64,000 bases of DNA from Arcobacter roscoffensis (GTDB lineage: Bacteria; Campylobacterota; Campylobacteria; Campylobacterales; Arcobacteraceae). Both the position numbers and the translations under genes were made by a program. The notes under the pieces are model-generated. The model made no database searches and had not been told where the DNA came from. It worked only from the letters and a program-made list of their open reading frames with translations. Where the stretch lies: contig NZ_CP100595.1 of NCBI RefSeq assembly GCF_024267655.1, forward strand, positions 1,922,001-1,986,000. The letters are read 5' to 3'. Positions 1 through 3,429 of the stretch are shown here, in pieces (positions within the stretch are counted from its first letter, which is position 1; every line of letters begins with the position of its first letter).

Positions 1-1
1 T

Positions 2-682
2 GAGCATGAAGCAAAACTTGCACTTGAAAGAGCTTTAAAACTTATGAATGAACATAATATAACAAAAGATGAAGTTTATCGTCAAAACTTTGTAAGTAAA
101 GAATTTGATATGAATTATAAAAGACTACCCGATTGGGTGGTAACTCTTTATGATTTAATGACAACTGTTTCAGGTTGTAAATTCACTTGGAAAAGAAATT
201 ATATGAACTCTGATTATGTTCAAAGAGGAAGAATTACAGGAAGAGAAAGGGATGTTGAAAATGCTCAATATTTAATTAGTTTTTTATTGAGAGAAATTGA
301 TAAGAAATCAGCTGTTTATAAAAAAGAAATTCAGGAAGTTTACACAACTAAATATTTAAGAATTTTGATGAAGTCTTATAAAAAAGGAATTGTTGAAAGT
401 GTCTTTGCTAGGCTTATGGAACAACACAAAGTCTTTTTTAACGAACAAGCAAAAGGAACTGATTTAGTTTGTGTTGATTTAGAAACTAAACTTAAAGATG
501 CAAAAGCATTTCTTGAAGAACTACTTGATAATAAGCCTAAAACGCATACTTCAAAAGCTCAATACGAAAAAAGAGGCATTAAAGATGGAATGAATGATGG
601 TGAAAAAATTGAACTTAATCAAGCAGTTTCAAAGCAAGATGAAGTTAGACAAATTGGGGTTAAAAATGAAAGACATATATAA
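2..682 (+). CDS. DUF2786 domain protein, 5' partial (accessory element)
   Basis: The reading frame is open from base 2, and the first residues (EHEAKLALERALKLM) match the start of a DUF2786 domain, whose usual form is a short helical motif with HEA..AL..A..LM. The true start therefore lies left of the window and the ATG at 44 is internal. About 227 residues are visible. The middle (residues around 30-150) is probably the domain that normally follows DUF2786. The C-terminus is charged and lacks recognisable motifs. DUF2786 proteins are common in phages and integrative elements, and their biochemical role is not known. It is the first of four closely spaced rightward genes that converge on an integrase, so it is most likely cargo or maintenance functions of that element. 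Identification of the domain is fairly sure; function is not. Confidence 0.75.
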   Translation, partial: EHEAKLALERALKLMNEHNITKDEVYRQNFVSKEFDMNYKRLPDWVVTLYDLMTTVSGCKFTWKRNYMNSDYVQRGRITGRERDVENAQYLISFLLREIDKKSAVYKKEIQEVYTTKYLRILMKSYKKGIVESVFARLMEQHKVFFNEQAKGTDLVCVDLETKLKDAKAFLEELLDNKPKTHTSKAQYEKRGIKDGMNDGEKIELNQAVSKQDEVRQIGVKNERHI

Positions 683-1004
683 GGACACATTTATATTTAA
701 AGTATGTAATGAACTTGGAATTGATATTAAAGAACTTGCTTTAATTTTAAATAAAACTAATAAATGTATAGAAAATTGGAGAAAAGATGAAAGCAACATT
801 CCTGCAAGAGAAAAACAATATTTAAAACTATTACTTGAAAACAATTCTTTAAAAAATGAAATTAGAAGAATGGAGAAGCATAAAGTTCTATTAAGTGAGA
901 ATATTGATTCAAATGAATTTGGGGCAAGCAAAATAGATATAGCAGTCAAAAATGGTGTTCTAAAAAGACTTTGTAAGTACAAGATAATACTAGAAGAGGT
1001 ATAA
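666..1004 (+). CDS. Small putative HTH protein of the integrated element
   Basis: This encodes a 112-residue protein if started at the ATG at 666. That ATG has a GGGG Shine-Dalgarno-like run about 8 bases upstream and gives a 17-base overlap with the preceding gene. The ATG at 594 would add 24 residues and a much larger overlap, so I reject it. Residues about 10-55 (ELGIDIKELALILNKTNKCIENWR, then IPAREKQYLKLLLENNSL) resemble a Cro/CI-like or phage-type helix-turn-helix followed by a short helix. The rest is basic and unfeatured. It probably binds DNA, but no family can be named. It sits in the element's rightward operon, 4 bases before the next gene. Confidence 0.6.
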   Translation: MKDIYKDTFIFKVCNELGIDIKELALILNKTNKCIENWRKDESNIPAREKQYLKLLLENNSLKNEIRRMEKHKVLLSENIDSNEFGASKIDIAVKNGVLKRLCKYKIILEEV

Positions 1005-1008
1005 CAAA

Positions 1009-1599
1009 ATGAAAACTCATAAAAAAGGTTTAGATTGTGGCACTTGTCACAGATTAGAAACTGAAAACAACAATGAAGTTACTTGTAAAAAATGTCTTAG
1101 ACTTATTGCAGATGATAAGCCAAGCAAGTTATATGAAGTTAGTTTTAATGTTATAGAGAATCTTTTTATTGAAGCTCCTACAGCTTCAAAAGCAATATAT
1201 AAAGCTTTTAAAATGTTTTACTATGATGGTGAAGCTTGTGAAAGCATTGGTGAACAGTTTAGAGTTTTTAGAGCATATGACAAACCAAAAGCTTCTTTAT
1301 GTAAAGACTCTAATCAGAAAAGAACTCTAACATATGAAGAAGAGCATGAGTTGATTAAAAAAGAAACTCTGAAAAAAGCAGATAAATTTAACGCTAAATA
1401 TCCAGTTGGTACAGATGTTTTGTTTCAAGGTGATGGCAAAGATAGCGTAGTAGTTACACAAACTAGAAGCAAAGCAACAGCTTATGATTCGTACATGACT
1501 ATATTCCTTGAGGGGGTAAGTGGTAGCTATAAATTAGATGATAGGTTTGTTAGAGTTTTAACAGATGAAAATATGAATTTAGAAAGATTGAGGGATTAA
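1009..1599 (+). CDS. Hypothetical protein with N-terminal four-cysteine zinc-ribbon-like motif
   Basis: This is a 196-residue protein that I do not recognise. Residues 9-33 carry CGTCHRLE...VTCKKCLRL, a CxxC-x14-CxxC arrangement that looks like a small zinc ribbon. Residues 40-90 (KLYEVSFNVIENLF...TASKAIYKAFKMFYYDG) resemble the short alpha/beta domain found in phage proteins that follow a zinc knuckle. The C-terminal part (about 135-190) is beta-rich. It lies 4 bases after its upstream neighbour and 3 bases before the next gene, so it is co-transcribed with the element genes. The function is unknown, and nucleic-acid binding is only an inference from the cysteine motif. Confidence 0.6.
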   Translation: MKTHKKGLDCGTCHRLETENNNEVTCKKCLRLIADDKPSKLYEVSFNVIENLFIEAPTASKAIYKAFKMFYYDGEACESIGEQFRVFRAYDKPKASLCKDSNQKRTLTYEEEHELIKKETLKKADKFNAKYPVGTDVLFQGDGKDSVVVTQTRSKATAYDSYMTIFLEGVSGSYKLDDRFVRVLTDENMNLERLRD

Positions 1600-1602
1600 A
1601 TC

Positions 1603-1872
1603 ATGAGTGCAGCAATCGCAACAAAAGAAGATTTTGATAAGTTCCAAAGAACTATAGTTAAAATGTTAAAAGAAGTAAATAATTCTACTCAAAAAGAATG
1701 GCTAACAAAAGAAGAGTGTTTATCTTTATATGGTATCAAAGATAGAACACTCACAGAATTAAGACAAACTAGGAAAGTTGTATTTAGTAAAGTTGGTAAT
1801 ACATGTATCTATAAACATGATAGTATTATTGAACTAATTGAAGAAAACAAAATTGAGGCTATGAGTCACTAG
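1603..1872 (+). CDS. Excisionase-like helix-turn-helix protein
   Basis: This 89-residue protein has residues about 30-82 (EWLTKEECLSLYGIKDRTLTEL, then VGNTCIYKHDSIIELIEEN) that fit the HTH_17/MerR-like winged helix of excisionases and DNA-binding accessory factors. It begins 3 bases after the previous gene. Its 3' end overlaps the 3' end of the convergent integrase gene by 14 bases. Excisionases usually bind next to arm-type integrase sites and direct excision, and proximity to the integrase fits that role. A simple transcriptional regulator is the alternative. The start ATG at 1603 is the only sensible one. Confidence 0.65.
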   Translation: MSAAIATKEDFDKFQRTIVKMLKEVNNSTQKEWLTKEECLSLYGIKDRTLTELRQTRKVVFSKVGNTCIYKHDSIIELIEENKIEAMSH

Positions 1873-2944
1873 GCTTATATGCCTCAAATAAACTATCTAC
1901 AACATTTTTCACACTATCTCTATGAACTTTTGAATATCTTTGAGTCATATTTGCAGTCGTATGACCAAGAGTCTTTCCTACAACTTCTAAAGTAAATCCA
2001 TTATTTACTCCATATCCCCCTACTACATGTCTTAAATCATGCATATTAAGATTTGCAAGACCTGTAGCAATCCTGATTTTATTCCAATGATAATCCATAC
2101 CACATTTACCTATTGTTTGCCCAGGTTTAACACTTGATTCAAATACAAGACCACTTTCTTTTATTCCATACTCTTTTAAAGCTTCTATTAATGTATCAGT
2201 TAAACTATATTGAAATGTTTTATTAATTTTAGAGATTTTACTATCAATAGTATATATATTGTTATGAAAATCAATATCTTCCCATCTTATGTTTAAAACC
2301 TCACCTTTTCTTCTACCATGCAACAACCAAATAAATATTGTTCTGATTTTTATATCTTTATATTTAAAAATTGCTTCAAACAGCTTTTTATTTTCATCTT
2401 CTGTTAATTCAATAACTCTTGTATTATCAAATTTAGGAATTTTTATTGCTCTTCCAATATTTTCTATATTCTTTATGCCCAGTTCAGGAAGAAATTTATA
2501 AATAGCTACAATTATCTCTTTTATAGATTTTGCAGTTTGAGGAGCTCTTCCTGAATCTAAAATATCATTTATAATCTTTTGGCACATGGCAGTTGTAATA
2601 TCTTTTGGTTGTTTACTTCCTATTACATCTTTTAAATACTTATGATAATTCTTTTCACTTGCATATAAATATGTATCAGTAACAGTATTTTTTCTTAATT
2701 CTAAATATTCTTTAAATAGATCATTTAAATTTTTTTTGATATTTTTCAAAGAATGGCCACTTTCTAACTCTTCTAAAATATCAAGTCTTAATTTATTTGC
2801 TGTCTTTAAATTTAAATTTGGTTCTTTTCCTAATGTTTTAGTTGTATCTCTACCATTTTTATATATTCTTGCAACATAAACTTTTTTACCATTTTTATCT
2901 ATTCTATAATATAAACCATCATATTTTGTCTTAGTTAAAGCCAT
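1859..2944 (-). CDS. Tyrosine-type site-specific recombinase (integrase)
   Basis: This 361-residue phage-type integrase catalyses strand exchange between attachment sites. An N-terminal arm-binding region (about 1-65, with YYRIDKNGKKVYVARIYKNG) is followed by a core-binding SAM-like domain (about 70-170) and a catalytic domain. The catalytic set is visible: Arg212 (GRRKGEVLNIRW), His302 and Arg305 (HDLRH), His328 (LGHTTANMTQRYSK) and the nucleophile Tyr337. The protein looks intact. The start at 2944 is preceded on the coding strand by GAAGGA. It faces the excisionase-like gene, which it overlaps by 14 bases. A nested inverted repeat begins 12 bases upstream of its start codon, and beyond that lies rnpB. 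It is the hallmark gene of an integrative element whose other end is outside the window. Confidence 0.93.
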   Translation of the reverse strand: MALTKTKYDGLYYRIDKNGKKVYVARIYKNGRDTTKTLGKEPNLNLKTANKLRLDILEELESGHSLKNIKKNLNDLFKEYLELRKNTVTDTYLYASEKNYHKYLKDVIGSKQPKDITTAMCQKIINDILDSGRAPQTAKSIKEIIVAIYKFLPELGIKNIENIGRAIKIPKFDNTRVIELTEDENKKLFEAIFKYKDIKIRTIFIWLLHGRRKGEVLNIRWEDIDFHNNIYTIDSKISKINKTFQYSLTDTLIEALKEYGIKESGLVFESSVKPGQTIGKCGMDYHWNKIRIATGLANLNMHDLRHVVGGYGVNNGFTLEVVGKTLGHTTANMTQRYSKVHRDSVKNVVDSLFEAYKPSDS

Positions 2945-2955
2945 ATTTTTCCTTC

Positions 2956-3007
2956 ACCGTGTTAAAAATGAACCGTGTCAAGTTTTTGACACGGAGTTTA
3001 ACACGGT
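2956..3007. repeat. Nested inverted repeat built on four CCGTGTyAA copies
   Basis: Two perfect inverted repeats are nested. The outer arms are ACCGTGTTAAA (2956-2966) and TTTAACACGGT (2997-3007). The inner arms are CCGTGTCAA (2973-2981) and TTGACACGG (2986-2994), separated by GTTT. All four half-sites share the core CCGTGTyAA. The structure lies immediately upstream of the integrase start. It could be an operator for integrase autoregulation, a set of accessory-factor sites at the element end, or an RNA hairpin in the integrase leader. Which protein binds it is unknown. Confidence 0.85.
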
Positions 3008-3013
3008 TATAGT

Positions 3014-3100
3014 TGTAATTGTATGTAATTCAATGTAATATTATAATGGTATATTTTTTAATAAAGGCTTATTTTGTAAGTGTTTGTAAGTCATTGTAAA
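3014..3100. repeat. Two triplets of 10-bp-phased TGTAA direct repeats
   Basis: TGTAA occurs at 3014, 3024 and 3034 (followed by TT, TT, TA) and again at 3075, 3085 and 3095, where the context is TTGTAAG, TTGTAAG, TTGTAAA. Spacing is exactly 10 bases within each triplet, and the triplets are 61 bases apart. One-helical-turn direct repeats at the edge of an integrated element are the usual form of arm-type integrase sites or excisionase sites. The array fills the gap between the integrase leader and the 3' end of rnpB. Confidence 0.75.
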
Positions 3101-3105
3101 GTTAT

Positions 3106-3429
3106 AAGGTAAACCAATAAGCCGAGTTCTGTTTTTAAGACAATAATTTATCTAGTTAGCAAATTACTTAGCTAATCTTGCGAAGACCAAAAATGTGAAG
3201 TAAATACCGGGTCTTCTTGCTGCTGGTTGGGTTTACAAAGCACTTAAGATTACTCAAAAGTCTGGTGAGCTCTTACCTCACCGTTTCACCATCACCGATA
3301 AATCGGCTGTCTACTCTCTGTTGCACTATCCCTTAGGTTACCCTAGCCATTCTCTAAATGGAACCATACCTCACTGCAGCCCGGACTTTCCTCTTGAACT
3401 TATGTTCAAGCTATTGTCTGGTTTACCTT
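3106..3429 (-). ncRNA. rnpB: RNase P catalytic RNA
   Basis: The minus strand carries the conserved bacterial RNase P RNA signatures. GAGGAAAGTCCGGGCT lies near the 5' end (around 3378-3393), and there is a conserved ending with ...ACAGAACUCGGCUUAU... near the 3' end. The limits are set by a perfect 11-bp P1 helix: AAGGTAAACCA at the 5' end (plus-strand 3419-3429) pairs with TGGTTTACCTT at the 3' end (plus-strand 3106-3116). It processes tRNA 5' ends together with RnpA. A TATAAT box lies just upstream. No U-run terminator follows the 3' end, where the integrative element's repeats begin instead. Confidence 0.95.

Follow-up and report, generated by a model that had tools for sequence, protein, structure and literature searches.

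The genes for tRNA and tmRNA are the textbook 3′-end targets of integrases. At a tRNA target the recombination of attP with attB takes place in the core, the copy brought by the element completes the gene and the host copy shifts to the far end. The islands and prophages found at tRNA and tmRNA genes (Islander/TIGER, PMC4383910, PMC12424338) carry a tyrosine integrase at one end and a direct repeat of the gene's 3′ end, the gene being restored by the element copy and the displaced fragment lying at the far end; the Islander/TIGER announcement gives tRNA/tmRNA, coding and intergenic as the only target classes (PMC4383910, PMC12424338). The locus described here shares these features, but its target is rnpB, the gene for RNase P RNA, and the part restored is one strand of the long-range helix P1, whose partner strand is found at the opposite end of an RNA of roughly 330 nt. 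It also resembles the dusA-targeting integrase clade (PMC4482086), in which one lineage brings different elements to one conserved host gene, although dusA is a protein-coding gene that is entered near its 5′ end, whereas here an RNA gene is entered at its 3′ end.

Two further systems bear comparison. Inoviruses are reported to exchange their integration genes often (PMC6813254), and their Zot-type pI ATPase, secretin and rolling-circle protein recur in G030, G451 and related elements of the present set; in contrast to the described inoviruses (PMC6813254), the inoviruses here share one rnpB-specific integrase lineage, and its position in the chromosome, with tailed dsDNA phages. Lambda-like integrases (PF13356, PF00589) have the same arm-binding, core-binding and catalytic domains, and a lambda-like attP likewise has a motif repeated on both sides of the core and a small HTH protein beside int. 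The arm motif here is different (TTAACACGGTT), inverted copies of it make a terminator-like hairpin, and its copies are candidate sites.

RESULTS

rnpB and the attachment sites

The window, meaning the whole stretch of 64,000 nucleotides that was analysed (G000:C1:1922001-1986000), is part of the closed 3.15 Mb chromosome of Arcobacter roscoffensis (genome G000), a member of Arcobacteraceae in Campylobacterales. The target gene and the repeats at the two ends of the element are as follows.

Window 3102..3429, minus strand: rnpB, class A RNase P RNA (Rfam RF00010), the target gene, 3′ end at 3102
Window 3104..3121, minus strand: att core, exact 18-bp repeat ATAAGGTAAACCAATAAG, far copy at about genome 1890032-1890049
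Window 3084..3143: rnpB-side attachment site (attR-like), 60 bp, 83% identical to the far copy
Genome 1890012-1890071: far copy, 35,072 bp from the rnpB-side copy

The rnpB gene is flanked by lolA and secA on its promoter side and by the integrase on its 3′ side. It is complete (RF00010, 257.2 bits, E 1.2e-82, 367/367 model positions matched), and P1 is fully paired (10/10 pairs), so the target gene is intact after integration. No tRNA or tmRNA gene that could serve as the target was found in the window or the element. As a separate observation, two assemblies each hold two full-length rnpB matches, G021 (C8 and C11) and G041 (C1 and C12), probably through assembly redundancy.

The end of rnpB, used as a query against the whole G000 genome, has a single further copy, at genome 1890012. 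The two 60-bp copies are identical at 50/60 positions, while the best match obtained from 60 Markov sequences of equal length reached 36/60. The exact 18-bp core lies entirely within rnpB and consists of the 3′ strand of P1 and the adjoining CTTAT. A direct repeat of the 3′ end of the target gene at the far end of the element is present not only in G000 but also in G030, G274, G376 and G539, and the far cores read TTGGTTTACC in G000 and G030, TCGTCGCACC in G274 and TGGCGTACC in G376. In G030, G274, G376 and G539 the far core repeats the P1 3′ strand of its own host lineage.

In G000 the far copy additionally shares 17 bp past the gene end (TTGTAAGTCATTGTAAA) that are absent from unoccupied relatives, so the pre-integration site may already have borne the scar of an earlier element; in the majority of relatives other DNA follows immediately after the P1 strand. 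A scan of the far flank for a displaced rnpB terminator called none on its rnpB side. As the whole core is common to both G000 copies, the crossover is not placeable within it.

These repeats bear on the possibility that the element integrated into intergenic DNA just downstream, with rnpB not the target and the shared gene end incidental. The G000 repeat does run 17-20 bp past the annotated gene end, and a number of arm-like repeats are located beyond the gene, but we regard this explanation as very unlikely, since the exact 18-bp core (3104-3121) is inside a gene whose model end is 3102, the shared block in G376 and G274 begins at CTTAT inside rnpB and stops within 1-4 bases of the P1 end, and in G539 it is a base of P1 that differs between the copies, the host version being the displaced one (see below).

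Integrase, candidate arm sites and prophage

The element side of the junction holds the following features.

Window 3009..3092: TTGTAAT/ATGTAAT/TTTGTAAG repeats, element-side arm beside the core
Window 2998..3008, plus strand: candidate integrase arm site, exact TTAACACGGTT
Window 2994-2973, minus strand: terminator-like hairpin between rnpB and the integrase, formed by inverted arm-motif copies
Window 2971..2981, minus strand: candidate arm site, one mismatch
Window 2955..2965, minus strand: candidate arm site, one mismatch
Window 1859..2944, minus strand: tyrosine integrase, 361 aa, co-directional with rnpB (PF00589, 80.3 bits)
Window 1603..1872, plus strand: small HTH protein, excisionase-like, whose gene overlaps the 3′ end of the convergent integrase gene
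Window 1..1599, plus strand: the portion of the prophage nearest rnpB that the window covers, the element running on to genome 1890012

The integrase starts 158 bp past the rnpB 3′ end and combines the catalytic domain (PF00589, above its cut-off) with Arm-DNA-bind_3 (PF13356) and SAM-like (PF14659) domains. R212, H302, R305, H328 and Y337 are invariant in the alignment of the rnpB clade, which gives the R...HxxR...H...Y signature of tyrosine recombinases, and this protein would perform the attP x attB reaction at rnpB. The small HTH protein has weak matches to HTH_17 and phrog_66 as well as a 39% homologue in G030 that is arranged alike, and is presumably the excisionase. The initial annotation, made from the letters and their reading frames, had described a complete tyrosine integrase and an excisionase-like gene beyond the rnpB 3′ end, 98 bases of repeats between a nested repeat and the P1 helix, and a complete P1; the integrase and the P1 helix are as it described them, the excisionase similarity is weak, and about 90 bp of short repeats occupy roughly 3010-3101.

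G024 and G023 also have the sequence that begins at 3010, and G030 has it from 3014. The 11-mer TTAACACGGTT has three exact copies in the 3.15 Mb genome, all of which flank the two att cores, two of them just inside the far core and one between the near core and the integrase. With up to one mismatch allowed, 5/13 genomic copies flank the att cores, and two one-mismatch copies stand inverted beside the exact copy at the near core. These copies are likely arm-type integrase sites, a role that we infer from their placement. The initial annotation had also stated that there is no intrinsic terminator after rnpB. This remark needs correction, because the inverted pair of arm-motif copies forms the terminator-like hairpin at 2994-2973 (9 bp stem, 5 GC, T-rich tail), 108 nt downstream of rnpB on the phage side. 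Elsewhere, a TTGTAAG-like arm box lies beside rnpB at G090:C1:326493-326841 (L019), with no integrase of the clade in the 12 kb examined.

Between the two att copies we found an HK97-type capsid, a portal, both terminase subunits, a tape measure, a DnaB-like helicase, an S24 repressor and an endolysin. With PF05065, PF04860, PF03354/PF20441, the tape measure and the S24 repressor all present, the element is, by its gene content, a complete HK97-type temperate siphovirus prophage of about 35 kb. Within it, at L003:7009-9684, a small lipoprotein and its neighbours occur twice in near-identical form, flanking a MazF-like gene (L003:8231-8839).

An rnpB integrase clade in two families

Among 104 Arcobacteraceae genomes the nearest integrases are all at rnpB, namely those of G030 (73% identity, intact), G024 (75%, broken) and G023 (79%, a 47-residue fragment), and the next, at 35%, are elsewhere. 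Outside these genomes, genome_contigs, viral_contigs and phage records gave no close relative except an Aliarcobacter MAG equal to G023. In 399 genomes of Campylobacterales the next closest integrases (38-42%) include those of G376, G274, G451 and G446, which belong to a second family and all lie beside rnpB, and searching 175 genomes of this second family brought in G539 and the broken G531, both again at rnpB. The six rnpB integrases tested in a tree of 46 integrases group together on one side of a branch supported at 96/88. The integrase of G251 is a sister, on a contig that ends short of its site.

It could be argued that rnpB is a general hotspot for many unrelated integrases, so that the clade adds nothing, and the elements at rnpB sites are indeed very different from each other. 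This is unlikely, however, as among Arcobacteraceae integrases found at E<=1e-8 only the rnpB clade is at rnpB, the clade is monophyletic in our sample, and at 18 order-wide loci scanned for RNA genes rnpB was found at clade members only, two others being at tRNA genes.

The elements themselves differ in kind. That of G030 (~15 kb; far core of its own at 1520175-1520227) has the Zot-type/pI ATPase (PF05707), secretin (PF00263) and rolling-circle protein (PF05840) of an inovirus; inovirus genes are likewise present in G451, and in G446 a matching rolling-circle protein is seen before the contig runs out. The G274 element resembles that of G000 in terminase and portal, and in the G376 element the head module is of another kind (phrog_21 portal, phrog_29 head). 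On these gene assignments, the rnpB clade is carried by HK97-type siphoviruses, by a further type of tailed phage and by inoviruses, three kinds of virus in all. At its far end the G030 element also has, as cargo, an Mrr-type nuclease and HNH/type IV restriction-like genes (L067:5822-8030 = G030:C1:1517822-1520030).

The broken integrases at this same site in G024, G023 and G531, and the arm sequence that stands alone in G026, might suggest that the G000 element is a dead remnant or a phage placed near rnpB by chance, its repeat the product of rearrangement rather than of an integrase. We consider this extremely improbable, given that the structural, replication, repressor and integrase genes of G000 are open, that repeats mark both ends, and that other species have independent elements, each with a core specific to its host, inserted at the identical base position.

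Empty and occupied sites

In G091 the gene order is MCP-ABC transporter-AI-2E transporter-flaL-rnpB-lolA-secA, with no phage genes beside rnpB. The G000 genome has the same host order, split at rnpB by the prophage and an external pair of genes. This pair, at L003:4152-5955 (genome 1888152-1889955) just outside the far att, consists of a DUF262 gene (GmrSD_N; PADLOC matches NsnA / PD-T4-2_A) and a HEPN-like partner, and is missing from the corresponding place in G091; it could be a defence pair or what is left of an earlier element. Because it stands between flaL and the far att and is absent in G091, the far flank has no clean match to G091. No core-like sequence that could be an att scar was found between flaL and the DUF262 gene.

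The empty site for G000 is thus given at the level of synteny, and that for the G376 element at the level of bases: the DNA outward of the G376 far core aligns, from within the core, to the DNA that follows rnpB in the empty G504 (75% over 560 bp). Separately, G026 has a phage-type att arm after rnpB (L070:3274-3988) with no integrase and ~700 bp before the host genes begin, likely the scar of a lost element.

The restored strand of P1

In G539 a single base of P1 distinguishes the two copies. The host P1 5′ strand AGGTGCAAC forms every pair with the displaced copy, GTTGCACCT, but has a U-U mismatch with GTTGCTCCT, the copy that now stands at rnpB, and this argues that the restored end was donated by the element. 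The simplest reading, limited to a single base, is a crossover 5′ of the differing position with the P1 strand provided by the phage. The same U-U mismatch is seen in P1 of G436 (L184, G436:C27:3234-3258), with no visible element, and could be an excision scar or a plain mutation. This case weighs against the argument from G539, as does the presence of the matching AGGAG/GCTCC pair in genomes free of the element.

We also considered phages as the cause of the AGGAG/GCTCC type of P1 in the second family. This type occurs in element-free genomes too, for which reason we rejected that explanation; it may be a host variant.

DISCUSSION

Our preferred reading, to which we give a probability of roughly 0.93, is that a ~35 kb siphovirus prophage sits in the 3′ end of rnpB, that its integrase recombines in a core made up of CTTAT and the P1 3′ strand and flanked by arm sites, that the element copy completes the gene, and that the integrase of the rnpB clade has been moved as a module. 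By analogy with tRNA targets, the phage tyrosine integrase would recombine attP with attB in the core, and attP would bring its own copy of the P1 3′ strand, so that the chromosomal rnpB would be complete after integration while the 3′ end that the host had before would now mark the far end of the prophage. TTAACACGGTT arm-type sites on either side of the core would hold the integrase, as in a lambda-like attP, and its module would have moved among HK97-type siphoviruses, inoviruses and another type of tailed phage, within two or more Campylobacterales families. The repeats, prophage content, occupied and empty sites, clade and P1 match are read from sequence and give the product of the reaction; the reaction itself, the exact crossover point, the arm-site role and the identity of the excisionase are what we infer from them.

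The initial annotation had proposed rnpB as an attachment site whose gene the element restores, and had pointed to a far-side repeat of the rnpB end and to element-free relatives as the places to look. The proposal is supported, as the repeat is found 35,072 bp away (50/60 plus the exact 18-mer), rnpB is element-free in G091 with host genes adjoining and in G504 at base level, and restoration agrees with a core that is the P1 3′ strand and with a displaced strand that alone pairs with the host in G539. Neither of the outcomes that the annotation had named as contrary to its proposal was observed.

A tyrosine integrase that restores the 3′ end of an RNA gene is of a known kind; what appears new, within the open literature searched, is rnpB as the target. 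Neither rnpB nor RNase P RNA is named there as an integration site, and in the likeliest papers rnpB serves only as a phylogenetic marker, as a promoter or as an entry in gene counts. There may be rnpB cases in databases such as TIGER that are listed without discussion.

The finding adds rnpB to the target classes, as one that will escape island finders based on tRNA genes, and suggests that such integrases make use of a conserved RNA end rather than of tRNA identity. It also raises the question of how an integrase module passes between dsDNA tailed and ssDNA filamentous phages with its site kept, and that of whether RNase P is changed by phages that supply part of P1. On the latter we propose, tentatively and with rather less than even confidence, that a dedicated rnpB clade shared by unrelated phage kinds overwrites the P1 3′ strand of this essential ribozyme at each integration, and that a cross-species mismatch such as that in G539 may select for compensation; if true, this would be a phage-imposed change in RNase P RNA.
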